From assembly GCA_025526915.1 (NCBI GenBank), contig JAHLKH010000015.1:156989-220988 (forward strand): a stretch of DNA of 64,000 nucleotides, given 5' to 3'. The first letter of the stretch is position 1, and the number at the start of each line of letters is the position of its first letter. Below are positions 24,062 to 37,449 of the stretch, in pieces. This DNA is from Entophlyctis helioformis (lineage: Eukaryota; Chytridiomycota; Chytridiomycetes; Chytridiales; Chytriomycetaceae). The position numbers and the translations under genes are program-made. Below the pieces are notes generated by a model that saw only the letters and a list, made by a program, of their open reading frames with translations, did no database searches and was not told the origin of the DNA.

Positions 24062-26760
24062 TTACTCGGCCTGGCCTGGCTGAATGACATCGTCAATCTT
24101 GAGCACCATCTTGACCAGCTGCGTTGCAAGGTAGAACTGCGAGCGCTTCGAGATGAGCGGGTCAAACACGTGCTGGCTGCGCATGTCGTTGGAGCCGCGC
24201 AGGTTGCAGTCAATGCCGAGTCTCGAGTTGTTCTCGGTTGCCTGGCGAGACTTGATCTCGGCGAGCGTCTCGATCGGGGGGAGTCCAGAGTTCTCGGCAA
24301 GGGCGAGGGGGATGGCGTCGAGGGCAGACGCAAACGCGCGCATGGCGTACTGCTCAATCGACGAGATCTGGTCGGCTGCCTTGGAGACAGCGAGCGAGCA
24401 AGTGATCTCGGCAGCACCGCCACCGTAGACGATGCGGCCGTCACGCACAAGGTTGCGCACCACACAGATGGCGTCGTGGAGACTGCGCTTGGCCTCGTCA
24501 ATGATCTGCACAATAAAGTGGCAATGCAACACGGACACAGTCAGTTGTCAGCCAGGCGATCGACTGGCGGAGATGAGCAGCCATTAACTCGACAGCAAGC
24601 AACATACCATCTTGTTGCCACCGCGCACAAAGAGCGTGACAGCGCGCGTGTTGGCGCACTCTTCAATGACAAGCATGCGGTCCTTGGTCGTGCCAAACGA
24701 GATCTCGCGGACAACACCGGCCTTGCCGAGCTTCTCGGCAGAGAGCTCTGCAAAGCGGGGAACAATGCGGCCGTTGGTCGCAATAGCAATAAGCTGCGAG
24801 TGAACAATCATATCCAGCCATGGCCATGGTTAGCATCGAGGCTTGCGCGTTCAAGGGCCAAACAACAAAGCAAAGCAGCAGCAACAATAACACACCTCGA
24901 TCTCAGGACCGCCAACCCAGCGGACGGCAGGAAGCTGGTTCTGGAGAAGCAGGTGGTTGGCCTCGTCGTCAAAGCCCCACTGGCAGATGACCAGGTTCGC
25001 GCCACAGTCCTTGACCTGCTTGACCATCTCGTCAAACTTGTCCTTTTCGTACTGCTGCAGCTTCTTGTATTCTTCCACGGACGTGATGTCGAGCTGGTGC
25101 TTGGTCTTGGGCTTGGGGGGCTCAAAGGGGCAGGTGAGAATGGCGAGCTTGGCGTCGCGGATCTCCTTGGGCATCTGCGGGTGCGAAAAGTCCTTGTCGA
25201 CAACAACACCGTACACGATCTTGGAGTCCTCGAGCGAGCCGCCGACCTTGCCGTCGACCTTGATGAGCTCAAAGTCCACGTCCTTGCGCTCAAGGTCGGC
25301 AACGGCCAGAACGGCATCCACAGCCATCTGGGCAAACTTGTCGTGGCACTTGGAGACACTGTTCAAGGGGATGCCAGGCCGCGTCCGCGTCAGTCACAGT
25401 CGCCACGCGTCGACGTGCAGACAATGACTGCACGACGCTCTTACATCTTGGAGCCAAGACAGGTCTTGGCTGTGCGGTGGAGGATGTCCAGGTTGTCCTT
25501 GTCAAACGTGATCACATCGGCGACGGTGTCGAGATGCGCCACGGCAACATTACAGGCACGCTCGAAACCATCGGCAATGCGGATGGGGTGGATGCCCTTG
25601 TCCAACAGAGACTCGGCCTGCTCAAGGAGAGCACCAGCAAGAACTGCAGATCCAGGCCATTGGCGGTCATGCATCCGAGTTAGAAACGTGGGGCCAATCC
25701 AGAGTATCCAGTGTGCAGCAGATCAGACGGCCCGGCCAAAGACGCACCAACAACACCCGTGGTGCCATCGCCAATCTCATCGTCCTGGCTCTTGGACAGC
25801 TGCACAAGGAGCTTGGCGATCTCGTGCTCCACCTCCATGCGCTCCATGATGGTTGCGCCGTCGTTGGTGATGGTGATGTCGCCGTCGGGCGAGATGAGGA
25901 TCTTGTCGAGACCTGCAGACATCCGGCATGGGAGCGTCAGCCAAAAGACAGCAAGGCAGCCCAGGTCCAGGTCCAGTCCGTCCAGTCCAGCCAGGTCCAG
26001 TCAGCGGTATGAGCCTTGGTTGCGACCGCTGGGCTGAACTGGACAGAAACGGGCGGCGGACAGGACTCGACTCACCACGAGGGCCGAGGGACGACTTGAG
26101 GATGTTGGCAACGGCCTTGGCAGCCAGGATGTGCGACTGGGGCGAGAGACGCAGGCAGCATTGCAGACGGGCAGATGTGGCAGCAGACACCGAGCGCACC
26201 GAGGCAGGCAGGCGGGCGGGCGGGCAGGCAAGACAGGCAGGCAAGACAGGCAGGCAAGACAGGCAGGCGGGTTGGGTCAGTTTGGCACACCACAAACGCC
26301 AGATCACGGCAGGCAGACAGGCGGAGCAGAGGCTGCCGGCGAAGCGGGCATGGCCGCAGTGTGTGCAGGTGCATCCGGCCCACTCTAGTGCTGGCTGGCT
26401 GTCTGGCTGGCTGGCTTGGTGTGCCGCACGGGCCTGCATGGCACCAAGCCAGTGCGGCCAGTACAGCCAGTGCAGCCCGCAAGCCAGTCCGACGACCAGG
26501 GGTGCGGCAGTCTCTGTCCGTCTGCCGGTGCATTGGACCACGGCGGGCTGGCTGGGCAGACGAGGCTGACGGGGCTGGCTGGGCTGACGGGGCTGACGGG
26601 GCTGACGAGGCAGGACGCAGGCGAGGGCAGAAGGGCAAGGGCCGCACACCTTTTGGGCCTCGATGCCCTTGATGCGGGTCTTGGACTGCTCGCGCAGGAT
26701 GATGAGCGGACGGCCGTACTCGTCCTGGGCGTACATTGCGTCTCCGACATTGATCGACAT
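24062..26760 (-). CDS. CCT5: T-complex protein 1 subunit epsilon (CCT5)
   Basis: One of eight subunits of the cytosolic group II chaperonin that folds actin, tubulin and WD proteins. Seven exons on the minus strand (26650-26760, 26076-26136, 25748-25912, 25445-25643, 24896-25358, 24608-24793, 24062-24505) give 542 residues, as in animals. Hallmarks are [10 protein letters not shown] and [11 protein letters not shown] (nucleotide binding), [11 protein letters not shown] (catalytic Asp), FSHPQMPK and [12 protein letters not shown] (epsilon-specific apical segment), [25 protein letters not shown] and VYGGGAAEI. All phases agree and no frame problem is seen. Introns 1 and 2 are long and contain GGCA-type repeats. 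Confidence 0.97.
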
Positions 26761-27253
26761 GTTGGCGGCTGCGGGGAGGCTGCGGGGGGCTGCGGGGATC
26801 TGCTGGGGCAGCGCACCGTCGACGGCCAGAGCGGGTTCGCACAGGCACGGCAGCGCTGATGGTCAGTCCCTGTGTGGCGTGGGCAGAGCGTCGTCGGTGG
26901 GTGTGTGTGCAGCTCGGCACAGCATAGCACGGCACGACGCGGCTGTTGCGCAAGACTCACAAAAGCAGTTGTCGGTCAAAGTGCGCCGAATTCACTGCGC
27001 GCTGAGGGGTGGGCAATAGGGCGAGGGAATGCCGGCAGTTGCCGGCAAAATGCCCGACATCCAAACAATTACCAAGAATCATTGAATTAAATTGGACCCG
27101 AGAGGCGTCGAATGTAAGGCAAGCACATCACACGATTGAAGGTTCGAGTCAGCAACGAGCATGCGACGACAAGCGGGCGATGTACATCCACATGCATGAG
27201 GGTCTTACCTTCGTAAGAAGTGACCCTATTGGTCGATCGGGAGGTGCCCCGAT
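26761..27253. other. CCT5 5' flank and 3' flank of the PIN-Fanzor gene
   Basis: No protein gene. The stretch shifts from GC-rich flank to an AT-rich patch (27055-27100). It contains two adjacent palindromes TGCCGGCA at 27030-27037 and 27040-27047 and a nested hairpin at 27199-27227. These lie where the end of a mobile element or a guide RNA of the downstream nuclease gene would be expected. Confidence 0.5.
27199..27227 (-). other. Nested hairpin downstream of the PIN-Fanzor stop codon
   Basis: AGGGTC and GACCCT pair as an outer stem and CTTC/GAAG as an inner stem around a TTAC loop. It starts about 27 bases after the stop codon on the gene's strand. Guide (omega-type) RNAs of TnpB and Fanzor systems usually come from this side of the nuclease gene, so this is a candidate structural element; it could also be a termination structure or chance. 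Confidence 0.35.
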
Positions 27254-30200
27254 TCATATTGTGCTGGAAGTCACAGCACGTGGAGTTGCATGTGCCTTGC
27301 TGGCTCGTGACCCGCGGACAGACCGTGTCCGTGGTGGAGGCGGCAGGACGATGGGCGGATCGGGTGGTCTTGGAGGCCGCTGGTTGACAGGCAGCTCAGG
27401 TACTGGAAGCTGCTGGACGACAGGCTGACTGGCCTTTGTGTGCGTCAAGTAGAGCGGCCGCTCTCCATCGAGCAAATGCCCCAGTGCGACCATTCCGATG
27501 TTGGTGGCTCCAAGCACGTCTCGGTGGTAGACGGCCTTGCATGCTGTGCACTCGTAGCGTCGCAGGTTGGTGCGGTTCTTGTATGGGATCCGCTGCTTGC
27601 ACTGCGGGCACATCTGGCTGGTCAGGTTCTCGTTGCAGCGGTAGATCTGTGTGTGTGTGTGCAGGATCGTGTGGTCAGTTGGTGCACAGATGGATGGATG
27701 GATGGATGGCATGGCATCAGACGCACATAGGCATATCCAGACGACCGCAGATGCCTGATGAGAAACTTCTCAAACACAGCGTGCCGGACCACCTTGCCTG
27801 TAAAGTCGATGCCAAATGCCCACACAACGGGAATGTCCTTCTCTGTCGACTTTTTTGGATCGAAGGGCAGGCCTTGAGACGCAGGAGATGCGCGCTTGCC
27901 AGTGGTCGATCCTGCCAGCTTCATGATGCCTTCAAGAGCATGTCCGCGAAAAGACATGCTGTTGCTGCGCATGGAAAAACGCTCGGCCTTGACCTTCTGT
28001 GGAATGCCATGCCATGCCACTCAATGCAATCAGCAGGCGATCAAGCAGCATGGCGATCATGCCGATATGCATTCAGAAGCAGAGAAAACATACCTTTGCA
28101 TTCAGGAATGTCGAGCAGTACGCCAAGCAGCGAAGATCCCAAAAGGCTCTCTCGCCTGCTGAGACGCCTGGATCGGCATGCTTTGCCATCTTGAAGGCAA
28201 TCGCCTCATGGATGTCGGCTGCCTTGGCATATCGATTGTTGAACCTGGCACAAGAGACAGGCACTGTGAGTTGATCTGGTCAAGAGTGCACAGAGTCATT
28301 GCATACATACCATCGCAGAAGTTCGCGCTCAGCTTGAAATAAGCCAGAGGAGAGCACATAGTTGGACTCGTGCGTGTATGTCTCGGTTCGACATTGACCA
28401 GCATGCTGGACGCGCCAAACAGGTACCGCTGGCCCCAGTCTAGACTGACAACGCGAACAGTCTCATAGCCCTTGTCGGCGAGCAGCTTGTTGGCATCAGC
28501 AACATCAGGTAGTCGCTGGGATGCATTGAAGTTGCGCTTGGCCTGTCATGCCATGGCATGAGTGAGGGATGTGCAATGCATGTGCACCAATGCGCGAGGT
28601 TAGCATGCAAGTGACATACAAGGTTTGGCACTTTTGGCTTGGCAGCTGTGGATGGCATGTCAGTTGGTGTGGACAGCAAGTACGCGTCTGGATTGGCACA
28701 GCAACTCACATTCGCCGTTGAGGTAATCAGGCACACAATCAGCCTCATTGGCAAGACTGGGAAGCTCGCATGAAGACGCCGTGTCGGGACCTGCGAAGCA
28801 AGGCGGCGGTTAGAATTGATGTGTGCACCAAAGCATCCAAGCACGGCACATACTGCAAGGCGACTCTGGACGGTCTGTGCGATAATCGCGAACCAACTGG
28901 CCGACGCTGTATCCGTTCGAGATGACGCTACTCATCCGTGTCCGTTTGGTTGGTCTCGCTGGGGGTAGAGCATCAACCGCAGCCTGGATGAAGTTCTTGC
29001 GCTCCTTGCCACGCAGACGCTGCTTCTTGGCCTCTTGCGTCGCCTTGGCTCTAGCCGCTTTCTTGGCCTTGGTGTTGGCTGCGTCCATTTCCGCTTCGGC
29101 TTCTGCCGGCGTTTGATACCGGCCTTTCTTGGGGCGGAGGCCGGGAAGCAGGACGTCCATGACGCAATTCTCGCGACTCGAGCTGAATGCCTTCTTGATC
29201 TCGCTGTCGGTTGACTTGAGTGTCAACTTTTTCGAGCCAGGCTCTTTGAGAAAGGTGGATTGTTAGTATCAAATCATAAAAAGATGGCACAAACAGGCAG
29301 TGCAACTTACTGATCGCAGCAAGTAGCTCCTTTCGCAGTGCTTGCAAAGCAGGATCCTGCCCCTTGCTGTCGCGCTCCTTCTTTGTCCCCATCACAGACC
29401 AAAAGAGTGTCCTCTCTGTGATGAGAACGAAAGGGTCGCAGCTTGCCGGCTGCGGGCAAAGCTTGATGCTCTGTCTCCCAGCGAGATCGCGCAGCGCATG
29501 GAACTTGCCGGGATGCGACAGCGACTCACTGAGCACAATCGCAGCGAGCTCGTCTAGCTCTGGAGGTAGCACGACAACGGCCTTGCCCTCTGTGGCTGAG
29601 GAAGAGCTGGATGCTGCGGCCTTCTTGCTGCGTGGCTTCTTTGGTGCGTCCTTGCCCTCCGTGGCTGGCGATGGGCTCGGCGCCGCGCTCTCGGTGGTGG
29701 CAGCCTTCCCGACACATGGCTTCTTGGCATCCTTGGCAGCGGCGGCCTTAGCAACGCGTGGCTTCTTGGCGGCTTTGGCAGCAGCACCGTTGGCAGCCGT
29801 GGCGTCCTTGGCAGTGGTGTCCTTGCCGACGCGTACCTTCTTGGCTACGCCGCCCTTGTCGGTGATTGAAGTGCTGGACGCGGTCCGCTTGTGGGTTGGC
29901 GCGGGGTCCTTGCCGACGCGTACCTTCTTGGCTACGCCGCCCTTGTCGGTGATTGAAGTGCTGGACGCGGTCCGCTTGTGGGTTGGCACGGCGTCCTCAG
30001 TGGCAGCCTTCCCAACGCGTGGCTTCTTGGTGGCTATGGCAGCAGCAAGCCTGGCGTCCCTGGTGGCTTTGGCAGCTGCATCCCTGACGGCTTTGGCAGC
30101 TGCACGCTCGGCGTCCCTGGCGGCTTTGGCAGCTGCACGCTCGGCGTCCCTGGCGGCTTTGGCAGCTGCACGCTCGGCGTCCTTGGCAGCTTTGGCAGCT

Positions 30201-33200
30201 GCGCGCTTGGCGTCCCTGACGGCTTTGGCAGCTGCGCGCTTGGCGTCCCTGGCGGCGTTGGCAGCTACACGCTTGGGATCCTTGGCGTCTGCGGCGTCCT
30301 TGGCAGCTTTGGCAGCAGCGCGCTTGGCGGCGTTGGCAGCAGCACGCTTGGCGGTCTCAGCGTCCCTGGCTTTCTTGATCAGGTACGTAGTCCACGCCGT
30401 CGCTTGCTTGGGAGTTGAACCGCGCACAAGCTTGAGGCACGCTGCAAACACCAGGTCGGACTGGCTTCCAATGTAGTGCTGCGCCAGCATGGCACACACA
30501 CTCTTGGCGAGGTTGCTGAAGATATCATTCGCAGCTTCCGCGCAGAGGCTGCCGTCAAGCCTGTCTGGTAGAGCCGGCTCCTGCGCGACGGCTGGCGGCA
30601 TTTTGGGCTGTGGTATGCCTTTCTTGATCGCATTGGCGTGCACCATGCCTCGCGTCCATGACCGGTGCATCATCAGCTGCATGGCCGTGACGAGCCACGC
30701 GTTGATCGTGCTCATATTGAGACCCGGCTGGGCCATCTGCTTGCCACTGAAAATGTACGACAGGTGGCGCAGCATACAGGCCATGGACGTCTCGCCGCCA
30801 GAAGCGCTGCTGATGATCTCCGTGAGCAGTTGGTTCGCTGTTGGCACCGCCGGTGCTGCTCCTGGCTGCTCAGACTCGTCGGCGTCCTCGGCGTCCTCAG
30901 ACTCGTCGGCGTCCTCAGACTCGTCGGCGTCCTCAGACTCGTCGGCGTCCTCGATGTCCTCAATGTCCTCATACTCGTCGGCGTCCTCGCTGTCCTTTGA
31001 CTTCTTGACCCTCTCGTGCAGACATATCTCGAGTCTCGTGCCCGTGGCGAGTGGCACCGGATCGCCAAAGCGAGGATCGCTGCTCTCTGGGTTGTACAAA
31101 CTTGAGCCATACATGATCCGCGCGTCGATGCCCTTTCTGAGCGTAAATCGGCCGGACAGGAAATCCTCCCTTGACACGCCACCGGGGCGGTTGGTGCCGT
31201 CTGAGTTGCTGGGATCGTCGAGGGCTCTGATATCATCGTTGCTCAAGAAGCAGAACCCGGTCTGCTTTTCTTGGAACCACTGGTAAACGTGGTATTTTGG
31301 CGGGAGGGGCGCGTCTTGAACGATCTCGAGGAGCTCTTCAAGGACGGCACCAATGACGATAAGGCCGGCCTGCCGAGTACCGACGGTGAACGAGTACACA
31401 CGGGTAAACTTGTCCTCGACGATCAGATCCCGCGTCCATGTCTCTGGCGTCTTCCTGCCATGAAGGCCATGGAATCTGACGCGCAATGGATCACTCGAGG
31501 TAAGGTCCTGCAAACCACGCCAAGCTGCCAGTCAGTACATGCAACGCCATGCATGCAGGCAGAATGGCGATCCTAAATCGTACCTCGTATAGCACTCTCA
31601 TGCCACAACGATCAGCCGCGTCCACAGCGGGTCGATCGGTCGCGTCCACAGCGGGTAGATTGGTTGCGCCTCCTTTTGATTGCCGCACCTTGTCGCCGAT
31701 GGCCGCAAGGAGTGTTATGAATCGCGCGGTAACGATCTGGCTCATCTTTCTGAGCTTCAGCTGTAGTGCCCGTCGTGAGCGAATGACGACTCTACCAAAA
31801 CACGCATGTCAGCAAGTGCTCTCACGGCACATCGCACAGCATACATCACTTACACTCGCGTTGTGCCAGAAGGAAACCTGCGGTGCTGCAGGCCTGACCT
31901 TTGCCTGTTGGTCTTCGCGGCCTTCTTTGCCTCAGTATCTACAGCTTCCGTTTCGCTCTTCTTTTTGAGCTTGGCGAGCATGGCTGGCGTGAGAGGGCGT
32001 GGTGCCTGCAGAGGTTGGATGGCAACATGAGCAATGCATTCCGAGTGCACAAAATACATATGCAAGCATCAATGGTACATCAGAACTAACCGTCGTCTGG
32101 GTGTCTGCAGCTCGATTGAGAGAAAAGACAACCCGCTGTGCTTGTCCAGGCCAACAGTTGGTAGATGACCATTTACGCTTGGGCGGCGTTGGCGGTTGAA
32201 GCCCCTGTCAATTGGAAAAATGAGCGACTGCACCAAGTCATCACATGCACACACGGCCAGTGTAGACAGAGACGCACCGATGCCTGCTCGATGATCGACT
32301 TTAGCAGAGCAATAGCCTCGGCTTGCTGCTCGACAAGTGTCACTGGTTGGCCCTTCGTTTGAGCTTTCAGGTCTTTCAGCTGTTTTATGGCCCTGTCGCG
32401 GATTTCGGCAAAGGTCTTTGAGGAAACGCGGCGGGTGTTGATCTTGCCTTGATACTTGGGTTTCTGCTTGTTTTTCTGCGTTTCTGGTACTAAAGTAGCA
32501 CATTCGACAAAGGCAGCACTGTGAGTGGATGGTGTCAAGTCATTCTGATGCAAGCAGCACGTACTTGGAGTTGATGAATGCTCAAAGGGTACGCATGGAG
32601 GATACACGATCTTGTTCAGCTGGTTCTGCATCACCAAAGCGACAGTCTGTTCGATGGACAGTGGATTGGGTTAGACACTTCAAGGCAAGAAATGCACATG
32701 AGTCCAAGTCATGCAGAAACTTACGGTTGCATGCTGAATGGCCCAAGCTGGTTTGTTGAGCAACGTGCGCGCTTCCCGTACAGGAGGCTTCTTGCAGGCA
32801 AGCGCTACAAGTCGCGCGCTTGCCGCCCGGCTGATCCTCGCCAGAATGTCGCGGCCCGCGACTCCGCCATGATTGCCAGAGAGACGGCCCGCCGCGTGCT
32901 TGACGATGCAGTCAAATGCGATCGGGCAGCCGTTGACCTGCTCAAACGCGGTGTCCATTTGCTCGCTGCTGACAATGGTCTCGAGGTGCCGGTTGATGTC
33001 GCTCTGCGTCAGATGCACGACGTTGGAGTCTGGGTGTCGTTCTTGCCAGTTGGAGTGGGTCAGGAGGCAGCCGTCATGTCGCTGGCAACTGCATCACGAT
33101 CCAAAAGTTGCATCAAGGACAGGAGAACAGAGTCAGCAATGCGAGAACCTGCAGAGATCGCATGCATGAGTACCTTGGTTGAGCTGCGGCGGTCTTGACG

Positions 33201-34682
33201 GCAGCCTTGCCGCTGTCATTCCATGTGGTGATAGATGGTCAGTACAGTGCTCTGCATGCAAATGCATCAACAGTGCCGCGTGCTTGACCGATCGCGCAAT
33301 GACTTGCCTCTGCCCTTGCGCATCGCGAGATTGACCGCTGCTTCTGCTTGGGGCTTTGAACGCCGCAGCGGAAGCTCCTGACTCGTCGAGGTAAACGAAA
33401 ACGTCAAAGGCGTTGAGAAATGCCTTGGCGAGGTCCTCGCCTCCGATTGGCAACAAGTCCTTGACGTACGCGTCCCTGAGGCCCGTCAGGAAGTCGTCGG
33501 AAAACTTGCGGTTGCGGAGGCGATCACGGAAGCCGGCCAGATCCGTGTTTTCCTTGCTTATCACGCCATCAACGTACTCGTTAATGAACTTGGCACCAAA
33601 ACCAATGCCTGCAAGATGATGTGAGTGGCAACGCATGTTAGTCGGCATCGCAGCATGGATGACAATACAGAGCATGAAGCCAGGAATCGCACGCACCACG
33701 CCCGTAGCAATCGAAAAAGTCATTCTTGGCGAATGCAGCTAGAGTTTGGCAAGAGCCATCGAACTCGTACACTCCCATGGCTGACGCAGTGGACGGGATA
33801 CCTGCATGGTTATAAGACCGGATCTCGCTGTCACGTCCCTTGCGCATGCTCATCGTGATGACAGGGCAGCGGCCGTCGCAGTGCATCACCAAGTCCGAGT
33901 CGTTGGCGATAACCACCATTGGTGTGTCGCTGTTGCAAGATGAAGACTGTTAGCCGTCAATCAAAACATACAGTTGCGATGGCGGTCAATACCTTGGATT
34001 TCTTGCATACTCGGCTGCGCACCGGGCGATGCAAACGTCCGCCTCGTGGTCACACCAATGAGCCGTATGCTGTGGCTTGGTCTCGAGGATCTCCGCGATC
34101 GCCTCGTAAATACGCTGCTTGTCGTCGTGCGTGAGCGTGAACGAACGTCGCAGCGCCTGTCTGTCTTTCCTGGATCATTGATGGTTAGTTAGAATCGCCT
34201 CGATGTGGCATGAAGAAGTGGACGCACCTGGTCAAGTGTTTCGATCTCTTGCACTTGCCGCGTTTGCGAATGCACCGCAGAACAGTGGCCACCCCATTCA
34301 GGACCTTAACGGCACGGTGCCTGTGCTCGATCTTAAGCCCAGAGTCGCCGTGCTGACCGTCAACATGAAAGACGTATGTGTGCTTGTCGCCGAACTTGCC
34401 AATGAACGACTCGAGTACTGGCTCGAGGACTGACTTTCGTTCGGCCATGGATGGTTGTAGATCAGGCCTTCCTTGCCCGATAAAGTACGCAAAGAAGACG
34501 CTCATCACATCGACGTGGACGATGCCGCAAGTGCTGGGTGTGGCCGTGTTGGTGTCGCTCGGATCTCGTGGCGGTTGTGCATTGTCCAACACAAATGTCA
34601 ACGCCGAGGACCAAGGCACGTCCTTGTGTACGACGACGGCCTTTGCCTTCCTGGAATGTGCAGACTGGCCGATGATGCCCAT
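27254..34682 (-). CDS. XPG/FEN1-like PIN nuclease fused to Fanzor (TnpB-like) nuclease
   Basis: Nineteen exons join in phase, with one single-base correction, into a predicted 2025-residue protein. Exon ends: 34682-34228, 34169-33993, 33929-33697, 33608-33308, 33212-33174, 33088-32725, 32646-32565, 32489-32278, 32204-32091, 32005-31854, 31791-31584, 31507-29311, 29243-28854, 28790-28710, 28645-28620, 28542-28311, 28244-28094, 27996-27727, 27646-27254. Residues 1-300 resemble XPG/FEN1: start MGIIG, GIVHVDVM, VFHVDG, CDHEADVCIA, VIANDSDLVM, FAKNDFF, then GIGFG, so the family's acidic metal ligands are kept. The middle is acidic, then Lys/Ala-rich. The C terminus fits the published Fanzor signature: VVSLDWGQRY (RuvC-I Asp about 1712), about 190 residues, then NENLTSQMCPQC, YECTACKAVYHRD. 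A base seems missing near 28390. It could be two genes; the domain calls are firmer than the fusion. Confidence 0.68.
29820..29987 (-). repeat. Intragenic tandem duplication (87-base period)
   Basis: Two nearly identical units of about 81 bases, at 29820-29900 and 29907-29987, encode HKRTASSTSITDKGGVAKK twice. They lie in the Lys-rich middle of the PIN-Fanzor protein and indicate recent slippage or unequal exchange. Confidence 0.85.
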
Positions 34683-34702
34683 GTTGTGCGTGTGTGCGTG
34701 TG

Positions 34703-34761
34703 CGGTTGCTGATCGTGCGTGCGTGCGTGTGTGCGCAGTTGCTGATCGTGCGTGTGCGTGT

Positions 34762-34820
<59 letters not shown>

Positions 34821-34898
34821 AGTTGCTGATCGTGCGTGCGCGGCTGCTGATTGTGCGCGTGTGTGTGCGAGTGCGTGTGCGGTTGCTGATCGTGCGTC
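34703..34898 (+). repeat. (GT)n run flanked by repeated GTTGCTGATCGTGCGTG units
   Basis: A GT tract of more than 50 bases (about 34763-34817) is flanked by four copies and one variant of a 17-base unit starting at about 34705, 34738, 34822, 34844 (variant) and 34882. It lies immediately upstream of the PIN-Fanzor start codon. Confidence 0.85.
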
Positions 34899-34989
34899 CT
34901 GGCCTGAAAGCTCAATCAGACAGTTGCAGAGTGTCGCGGAAAGCTCGAAATCGCTTCTCCATTCCTTGAGGCGAGCAGCCCGATGGAAC

Positions 34990-36769
34990 AATGGACAAAG
35001 GGCTCCACGCCTCGTCCTCCATGAGCATGGCCGTGGATGGCAAGCTGGGCTCGGCACAAGGCATTTGTTCCCTTTGGCCGAGCACAATGATTGGACGCCA
35101 CTGGTCGCCAAATTTAATATCATTTTCATTGTTCTTGGCCAGTCACTCTGAGCAGCGAACAGATGGCATTGATGCGGATCGTCTCTGCTTTGAGGCTGGC
35201 TTACAGCCCATCTTGAAGGGTATGGCTTGATGGCCACTGGGCAGCATACCAAGGGCCATCCTGCTTGTGGCAGTCTCGACTGGTGACAGCCGGCATTCTT
35301 CTGCAGAGACAACCGCGTCACAGCAGACCTTGACGTCTTGGTTGATGCTGGAGTGCGATGGCGCGCACAATGGCGCACGCGTCGGTAGAAGCGCCACCCC
35401 TCTTGAAACAGGCAGTGATCTAAGGGTTGGTGGCACCCAGAGCGCCACGCCCATTGTCAAGTTGAAGTGGCTTCTGAGATCATCAACCCAGATCGCCTCG
35501 ATTCCACGATGCTCATAGGTTGAATCTGCAACCAAAGGCTTGCTTGATGCTCAACGGCGGTTGGATGCTGGCATGGCAGCCACAGCACTGGTTGCCCATC
35601 CAGCCTTGTTCATAGGGTCCATGCCGCAGTTGGAATCACCAAGTGCGCATGGAATTGCTAGATCTCATCCGTGTGAATACCTCCAACCTGATGCCCAGCC
35701 CTCCTTTGTGCTCTGAGCAGTACTGAGATGCGCCATATCGCTATCTGGCTCTTGGAACAGAGATTGCCAACCAACACCATGACAATCCTCCAATCTTTGA
35801 CCGAGTAGTCATCCCAGATCTCACAAATGTGTCGCACTTTCTTGTGATGATGGTGCAAGGCGAGTTTCTCCTTGGGCCAGTGTCTTCATTGCCGACTTTG
35901 GATGCTGTTGACTTCAGTCGCCAGCAGGTCTGGGACGACTTGTTCTTTGCAGCCTGCAGTCGATCAGCCCTTTGTTGTTGACCGAGACTGTGCATGCTGC
36001 TCGTCATTGCATTCGCGGGCATGCTGACAAGCCAGGTGGGCGTGGCTGTTGGCTGTGGATGACGGGGTGCGACGGCATCGTGCCTTGAATGCAAGACTTG
36101 CTGATTATCTGCGCTGCTGGCTGTTGCAAAGACACTTGTCGCTGCGACCTTGCTGTCTACACAAAGGCAGCCAGGACAGAGGTTGACATGAGTGAGCAGA
36201 ATTGCTGCAGGCATTCTGTGTGTATCGCCTCGACAGTTCTCAAAGTCAGACCAAGCCAAGCGCGATGCCTTACAGCAGCTCAGATACCGCAGCTCAACGA
36301 TACGCCGAGTGATCCATCCATGACCTCGTTGGTGAGCTCGTCTGCCTCTTGTGCGATGGCTGTCAACAGTTGCGACTCTGTTGACACTGTGTGCCTTGAC
36401 AATCTCGACGACGGCAAGGACCTTGCGGACGAGCATGGACAGCCAACCGTTGCTGTAGCTGCCACGCCAACAGCCAGCCGCCAAAGAGCGTCAAGCAAGC
36501 GGAAGAGAGCAGCAGCAGATGCCAGTGCGTCTGTGTCGGCTGTGACGTCGGTCGTTCGGACATTGCAGCAGGTAGCCCCAGCAGCACACACAAGTGCGCC
36601 GACTGGACGCAGAAGGCCAACAGCCGCAACAGGCAGTCGCAGGACAGTTCTTCGTGACACTACCAACACGCAACCAACTGCTGCCCCTTGGACAGGCTCA
36701 GCAGTCCACAAGCAAGCATCAAAGCGGGCACGACTTGAGAAGACATCGGCTGCAGACCGCTCAGAGTGA
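34990..36769 (+). pseudogene. Broken + strand gene, unrecognised
   Basis: Several stretches read as ordinary protein on the + strand, but in different frames. The clearest is about 35750-35965, with IFDRVVIPDLTNVSHFLVMM and LDAVDFSRQQVWDDLFFAA. Others are 35310-35385 (DNRVTADLDVLVDAGVRW), 35440-35515 (CQVEVASEIINPDRLDSTML), 35521-35715 (VESATKGLLDAQRRLDAGMA) and 36089-36769, which ends in a basic Ser/Thr/Ala-rich tail. Joining them needs at least two frame changes and passes a TGA near 35722. It may be a decayed gene, an intron-rich gene with consensus errors, or both. No family was recognised. It is divergent from the PIN-Fanzor gene, within the same candidate element. Confidence 0.45.
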
Positions 36770-37449
36770 CTGGGAATTCGGACAAGAATATGAAATTGGA
36801 TTCAAAAAGTCTGAAAATTGGATGCCAAATTGAACAAAATTCGAGGCAAACCAGCCGGCCAATCAGGTGCCGGCGCAAGGTTTTCTATGGGAACGAAATC
36901 AATTACCCCCCCCCCTCCGTCGCGCTCAGATCCAACGGACAGCCGACAACAGGCACTGAAAGGCGGTGGTTGGGAGAAGCAGCTTTTGTTATTGTGATTG
37001 TGGATCGCAGAGTGGAAAATGGAGCAGAGTGACCGTTGGCCAAGCGGCCAGCCGATCGCTTGGGCCTTCTTGCCTGCTCAATGCCAGTGAACACGGCGGC
37101 GATCACAGAAACGGAACAAGGCGGCAGTATGTGGAGAGGGCTTGGGCGTGGTCGGGTCGGAGAGAAATAGTTGAAGGGTGTGGAGATAGATAGGGCGGGT
37201 AGCGTAAGATAAAGGGAGGAGCTGGAGACGTTGGGGATTGGGCCGTGCGGGAGTTGATCTTGGTGTCTGGCGGTTGCCGTGATACAGAAACGCGGGAATC
37301 GTGGTGGAACGGATGTTGGGTGTTGACATGGCTGTTGCTGCTGCTTCGGCTGCTGCAAGTCGTGACTGTGTCTGCCTTGATCGACAGAATCACTGGCACG
37401 ATAGAAAACACGGCAGACATTCACAGAGCACGGTCCTTGCAGATCGGTA
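36770..37449. other. Intergenic, AT-rich patch and C homopolymer
   Basis: No supported gene. The stretch 36770-36850 is AT-rich, and a run of about 11 C lies at 36906-36917. It includes the proposed right edge of the candidate mobile element. Confidence 0.5.

Follow-up and report, generated by a model that had tools for sequence, protein, structure and literature searches.

In a stretch of 64,000 nucleotides from the chytrid Entophlyctis helioformis (GenBank assembly GCA_025526915.1, contig JAHLKH010000015.1, positions 156,989 to 220,988; hereafter the window) we find a 19-exon gene on the minus strand that is carried by a high-copy mobile element of about 9.9 kb. Our interpretation, to which we give a probability of roughly two in three, is that this gene encodes a single protein of about 1,900-2,000 residues, in which a FEN/XPG-like 5' nuclease would be joined, through a part possibly equivalent to WED and REC domains, to a Fanzor-type nuclease, and that this protein would help the element to home. 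No fusion of a FEN/XPG-like domain with a Fanzor was found in the literature covered on Fanzor, TnpB and XPG/PIN proteins, a coverage that left subscription papers mostly outside.

The window copy, rebuilt exon by exon, has its frame broken within exon 16, 3' of the first RuvC aspartate, and is therefore a disrupted member of the element family. In the diverged copy on contig C38 (C-numbers denote contigs of the 29.57-Mb assembly, or the copies on them), the 19 projected exons form a single uninterrupted frame of 1880 codons, which stops nine codons before the point aligned with the window's stop, so that the fusion is one gene at the DNA level. When six copies are aligned, the ATG and almost every splice site fall at matching places in C125 and C38, two diverged copies, the exceptions being the intron 1 donor of C125, which is GC rather than GT, and projected acceptors that read AA (introns 2, 4 and 12 in C38, intron 12 in C125), with an in-frame AG, found by eye, 3-9 bases off. 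As read in C38, intron 4 has a GC donor and the other 17 introns have GT, and acceptors are AG in 15 of 18. The window junction after 33308, at first sight a flaw in the gene model, is likewise explained by an intron of the GC-AG type. In the copy on C144, exon 13 is largely missing and exons 14-17 are entirely so. An earlier note, made from the letters of the window, had described a single chain carrying both nuclease ends, and the C38 frame bears this out. Its 19 in-phase exons were also recovered on the minus strand, but the "one base correction" that it needed is the real frame break in exon 16, and the high copy number of the element, the broken state of the window copy and the open diverged copy had all escaped it.

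The C-terminal part carries the Fanzor pattern D-x(125-275)-[TS][TS]-xx-C4 finger-x(5-50)-RD, as the earlier note had correctly recognised: in the window it comprises D1712 (within DWG), E1903, TS at 1906, the four cysteines of the finger and an HRD ending at 1940, and the same motif is present in C38. Pfam Cas12f1-like_TNB matches above cut-off (26.3 bits), with E-values of 6.6e-11 in the window and 3.5e-11 in C38, and the NCBIfam TnpB models match the zinc finger only, under their cut-offs (guided_TnpB, E 5.5e-7). The RuvC-II glutamate lies six residues ahead of the first CxxC (Ealt; ENLTSQMC in both window and C38), and this rearranged position is the one given for Fanzors in the literature (PMC10711439). 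The same source describes a DPG motif at RuvC-I as nearly exclusive to Fanzors (PMC10711439); here DWG is found instead, in the window and C38 and also in P0003 and P0007, so that by this criterion the Fanzor/TnpB-type C part would be an atypical Fanzor or a Fanzor-like relative of TnpB. Another Fanzor-type zinc-finger end, on the minus strand, is found next to the host FEN1 gene (L003, C2:289838-292999).

The N-terminal domain is likely FEN-like, judging by its acidic residues. Across a set of eight diverged sequences, made up of seven copies and the database protein P0008, the number of invariant acidic columns is exactly seven; in the window these are D58, D108, E194, D196, D221, D223 and D281. 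The gaps between them are 50, 86, 2, 25, 2 and 58 residues, versus 52, 72, 2, 19, 2 and 52 in a PDB chain of human FEN1. When seven positions were placed at random 2,000,000 times, no draw came as close at every gap, a figure that serves as a guide and not as a p-value, since the tolerances were taken from the observed spacing.

Both catalytic regions are under purifying selection. Between the window, C125 and C38, the ratio of nonsynonymous to synonymous substitution rates (dN/dS) was 0.29-0.46 in exons 1-4 and 0.57-0.74 in exons 5-8; in exon 12 it was 0.34-0.47 in the first part and 0.30-0.37 at the end; and it was 0.46-0.53 in exon 13, 0.17-0.22 in the 5' part of exon 16 and 0.37-0.48 in exons 17-18.

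The element itself is abundant: in the assembly its N part has 222 matches, its middle part 150 and its C part 345, and more than 100 loci carry parts of it; the 19-exon gene is the sole gene recognised within the repeat. Similarity to five copies (C98, C144, C121, C38 and C125) ends within about 25 bp of the two ends given in the table, where a short and imperfect terminal inverted repeat (GAGGGG... and its complement) can be seen by eye. For 12 insertions the flanks on both sides were inspected by eye (in two others, C2 and C103, the 3' stretch fell short of the end). Exact target duplications were observed at four of these, 9 bp long in C121, C144 and C177 and 10 bp in C38, and two others had longer duplications with filler (13 bp with 2 filler bases in C82, 11 bp with 10 in C112). 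Partial duplications that could be due to chance were seen at four insertions (7/9 in the window, C121b and C13; 6/9 in C125), and at C98 and C1 no duplication was seen. The G tract at the 5' end varies from 5 to more than 20 G depending on the copy (window, L090, L086, L094). The N and middle parts of the gene in C125 and C38 are about 67% identical to the window, versus 91-92% for the 5' region; more generally, the element ends and the 3' third of the gene (36151-36913 and 27004-28914) are about 82-92% alike across subfamilies, which would fit recombination between ends and core, or a different constraint on each.

The N, middle and C parts travel together. Locus counts were made from listed matches entered by hand, the lists for the N and C parts being incomplete; some matches, for the most part secondary exon pieces, were not entered, and neighbouring ones were merged. 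Among the matches listed there are 115 N loci, 132 middle loci (merged from 150 matches) and 122 C loci. The N part lies upstream of 77 of the 132 listed middle loci and the C part downstream of 75, both on the same strand at 41, and another order or strand is seen in no pair within 5 kb. Similarly, 47 of the 122 listed C loci have an N part 4.5-7.5 kb upstream on the same strand, with none otherwise arranged at that distance, and of the 75 C loci left without a partner at least 13 are too near a contig start to fit the N part, contig starts being the side counted. An earlier, looser count gave 38 of 84 listed N loci with a C part 3-15 kb downstream.

According to our preferred reading, the 3' end of the element would supply a guide RNA, with which the Fanzor part would cut element-free sites, Fanzor being reported to be an RNA-guided endonuclease (PMC10432273). 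The fused FEN-like part would then trim 5' ends or flaps at the break, and repair would be steered to copy the element into the cut homologous site, i.e. homing by resection and homologous repair, while the 9-10 bp duplications would be made by a transposase acting in trans or by another activity. To a rival explanation, in which the Fanzor-XPG protein is a passenger that only retains or regulates copies, the element being mobilised by an unrelated DDE transposase that acts in trans and would be MuDR-like to judge by the 9-bp duplication, we give a little less than an even chance. The exact 9-10 bp duplications fit such a transposase, in the protein parts scanned no match to a transposase family was obtained, and there is precedent in the transposase-less Fanzor1 elements of Rhizopus, Phycomyces and Mucor, which have MuDr-like ends and 9-bp duplications (PMC3627910). 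Against it, the MULE domain PF10551 has no match at E 0.001 in the assembly, and the KDZ transposase domains that are present (four matches on three contigs: C334:6404-7253, C271:9823-10062 and C396:222-449; three of the four with an internal stop) lie on contigs not among the 40 listed matches of either element end, with no visible link to it. The inverted repeats usual for Mutator-like elements (MULEs) are also much longer than those of this element. A transposase hidden in the protein or the 5' region was considered and rejected: in addition to the lack of such a family among the protein matches, a zinc-ribbon family that takes its name from IS1595 transposases matched over the finger below cut-off (E 0.018-0.17), the 5' region has 1-2 base indels and, by eye, no coding pattern, and the plus-strand open reading frame (ORF) at 36089-36769 matched only TFIIF_alpha (E 0.76). 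Alternatively, the element may represent a self-sufficient, transposase-free class, in which one polypeptide would both make the guided break and process its 5' ends, and which would spread by guided cutting and by end joining or resection-driven copying; duplications that vary in length, filler bases and the lack of a recognised transposase would be the marks of such a class, which we nevertheless consider decidedly unlikely.

Several results, in addition to the DWG motif, weigh against our interpretation. Internal stops are present in five of the six aligned copies, the window included, once the exons are joined; exons 9-11 (dN/dS 0.81-1.20) and exon 19 (0.79-1.03) show no purifying selection; and the looser count included two N-C pairs in another arrangement, of which the stricter counts have none. 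Sequence searches of solved structures matched no Fanzor chain (one query alignment included damaged gene models) and gave no significant match for either end, the best being unrelated (E 0.12). The protein database yielded seven matches to the C part and one to the N part, all to short models (the searches span 0.55-1.75 times the query length), and no long relative of about 1,100-3,500 residues at E 1e-3. The AlphaFold models are of low confidence, the mean predicted local distance difference test (pLDDT) being 40 for the N domain and 42 for exon 12 of C38. None of the eight N-domain sequences is above any Pfam cut-off, none matches XPG_N or XPG_I, and their majority sequence matches no Pfam family at E 5. 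A hidden Markov model (HMM) built from human XPG and the XPG and EXO1 of the host gave no significant result when run against the eight domains and 20,000 shuffled sequences: at 7.1 bits (E 5.9), the top-scoring real sequence had 11 shuffles above it, a rank that does not look random, and the other seven were absent among the 27 matches listed. With hhalign, the N domains against host and human FEN1 and XPG and host EXO1 scored 17.3, in the wrong register, and 52 of 300 column shuffles scored as high; an earlier profile alignment to two host sequences had the expected register and was likewise not significant (E 0.096).

The earlier note had made its reading depend on profile searches placing both ends in their families. 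This holds for the C end, through Cas12f1-like_TNB; at the N end the scores stay below the cut-offs, which counts in part against it, and what stands of its FEN/XPG assignment is the seven acids in their order and near-spacing.

The eight N-domain sequences matched six Pfam families at E <1, of which the best three were XPG_I_2 (five of eight sequences, best E 0.0025, window copy 0.091-0.12), 5_3_exonuc_N (three of eight, best E 0.0044) and NYN_YacP (one of eight, E 0.027), all below cut-off. All three families we take to belong to the PIN superfamily, and XPG_I_2 presumably is the Asteroid-like one. Another reading is that the domain, though PIN-like, is no nuclease of DNA flaps and has instead an RNA-directed or regulatory role of which Asteroid and Mkt1 are the model, perhaps in guide-RNA processing or partner binding. 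That the commonest weak match is to XPG_I_2 and not to XPG_N or XPG_I, and that no significant match to FEN1, XPG or EXO1 profiles was obtained, would suit such a role, which we regard as unlikely given that none of the seven catalytic acids of FEN varies, that their spacing is FEN-like and that a 5'-3' exonuclease family is matched by three of the eight sequences. A genome search with PF12813 recovered host loci on C1 and C38 (89474-90367) and no element copy (three candidates scored). No relatives of FEN1 were found in genome_contigs, nor relatives of the N or C part in viral contigs or of the N part in phages; PHROGs gave eight weak families, seven unnamed and one a tail fibre. It is very improbable, in our view, that the N part is no nuclease at all and keeps its acidic residues for another reason: sub-threshold matches, a majority sequence without a family and a low-confidence fold would be expected of such a domain, and the number, order and spacing of the acids and the PIN-superfamily grouping of the three best families argue for a nuclease. 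Least probable of all is that two adjacent genes, one XPG-like and one Fanzor, share the element without a fused protein, since the relaxed constraint in exons 9-11, between the domains, is set against the 1880-codon frame of C38, length changes in multiples of three there in all six copies, open reading through these exons in the window and the four copies translated separately, and aligned splice sites around them.

The conserved middle part of exon 12 could suit the WED and REC domains of a Fanzor, as modelled. In the AlphaFold model of the C38 exon, residues 71-130 and 151-160, strands included, average about 59-80 when taken by tens, and the helices at about 361-390 and 491-510 average 65-79. 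Among four additional diverged copies exon 12 is open throughout in three, and in L084 it is open for 508 codons, the last part being unlike the others. The linkers within exon 12 vary greatly in length among copies and contain many acidic or Lys/Ala repeats (window, L069, L082-L085). The 3' untranslated end, the candidate scaffold of a guide RNA, is conserved and contains a hairpin, with little covariation: of 69 predicted pairs, two change on both sides and 13 show a break or a gap in one or more of the six sequences compared. It has no match in Rfam.

Table. Features of the element and its gene in the window (positions counted from the first letter of the window).
Feature	Positions	Strand	Remarks
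Whole repeat element, 9.9 kb	27004..36917	sense (-)	5' end near 36917, 3' end 27004
Element 5' end, GAGGGG..TAAT	36902..36917	(-)	half of imperfect ~14 bp terminal inverted repeat; by eye
Element 3' end, ATTGCCCACCCCTC	27004..27017	(-)	other half of terminal inverted repeat
5' flanking 9 bp	36918..36926		possible partial target-site duplication; 7/9 match to 3' side, could be chance; by eye
3' flanking 9 bp	26995..27003		possible partial target-site duplication; by eye
Conserved 5' region, apparently non-coding	36151..36913	(-)	91-92% identity in C125 and C38
19-exon gene, ~2025 residues	27254..34682	(-)	ATG at 34682, TGA at 27254; exon-by-exon rebuild, copy alignment, C38 frame
Exons 1-4	34682-34228, 34169-33993, 33929-33697, 33608-33308	(-)	
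Exons 5-11	33212-33174, 33088-32725, 32646-32565, 32489-32278, 32204-32091, 32005-31854, 31791-31584	(-)	
Exons 12-15	31507-29311, 29243-28854, 28790-28710, 28645-28620	(-)	
Exons 16-19	28542-28311, 28244-28094, 27996-27727, 27646-27254	(-)	
Likely FEN/XPG-like (PIN-like) N-terminal domain, exons 1-4	33308..34532	(-)	seven invariant acidic residues
Intron 4, GC-AG type	33213..33307	(-)	GC donor in 6/6 aligned copies
Linker, exons 5-11	31508..33212	(-)	exons 9-11 without purifying selection (dN/dS)
Middle conserved part of exon 12, possibly Fanzor WED/REC	30410..31507	(-)	beta-rich stretch, then helices; 150 genome matches, 132 loci
Exon 16, RuvC-I aspartate (DWG)	28311..28542	(-)	frame broken in window copy
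Rest of Fanzor/TnpB-like RuvC and zinc-finger region	27400..28244	(-)	E-x6-CxxC...CxxC-x6-D
3' untranslated end, putative guide-RNA scaffold	27004..27253	(-)	
GCCGGC-AACT-GCCGGC hairpin	27046-27031	(-)	within 3' untranslated end

It is possible that the element favours insertion in front of genes. In the window about 244 bp (26760-27004) separate its 3' end from the ATG of a gene that follows on the same strand and by its sequence is presumably CCT5/TCP-1-epsilon-like, the short piece having no Pfam match. Of ten insertion flanks of sufficient length, seven (window, C125, C144, C98, C121, C192 and C173) have a same-strand candidate start about 36-243 bp from the element; the flanking gene is COX4-like in C125 (E 5e-5, just under cut-off) and, by eye, TRM4/NSUN2-like in C144. 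In C38, C80 and C217 the longest flank ORF is on the opposite strand, that of C217 encoding a SET domain. C139 was considered as a case in which the shared 5' end precedes another gene, an idea that was dropped: it holds no more than a piece of the 5' part, with other sequence (host genes, by eye) after it.

If our interpretation is right, evolution has built in a single chain an RNA-guided cutter and a 5' end-processing nuclease, a combination that engineers make artificially, joining a guided cutter to an end-processing nuclease in order to steer repair outcomes. The role of Fanzors in the spread of transposons would also become testable, since separate mutants of the two active sites could be compared for their insertion, copying and deletion outcomes, in an element family that is abundant and in which the gene of one copy at least reads through without interruption.

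Among known systems, the closest are the Fanzor1 proteins of fungal DNA transposons (SPu-1/SpuFz1; ROr-4, PBl-3 and MCi-4), which share the TS-x2-C4 finger-RD arrangement and the glutamate six residues before the finger (PMC3627910, PMC10711439), and likewise reside on DNA elements without a recognised transposase, the MuDr-like ones with 9-bp duplications (PMC3627910). In contrast, the protein described here has 1880-2025 residues, where Fz1 proteins mostly have 600-700 (PMC11423790), and its gene has 19 exons, where SPu-1-1p is a single open reading frame (PMC3627910). It also differs from Fanzor1 in the extra FEN/XPG-like N domain and linkers and in having DWG for DPG. With FEN1, XPG, EXO1 and the T5-type 5' nucleases the N domain shares the seven acids at similar spacing and, in the window copy, a GIGFG after the last aspartate, whereas it differs from FEN1 and XPG in lacking a significant profile match, in its fusion to a Fanzor-type nuclease and, in C38, in being without the GIG stretch. 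It resembles the Asteroid-like (XPG_I_2) PIN proteins, its commonest Pfam match, although that match is below cut-off and PF12813 finds no element copy. Finally, TnpB elements that home or follow "peel, paste and copy" are kept or copied through guided cuts at sites free of the element; the role proposed here would be alike, with the difference that a 5' processing nuclease would sit in the same chain.

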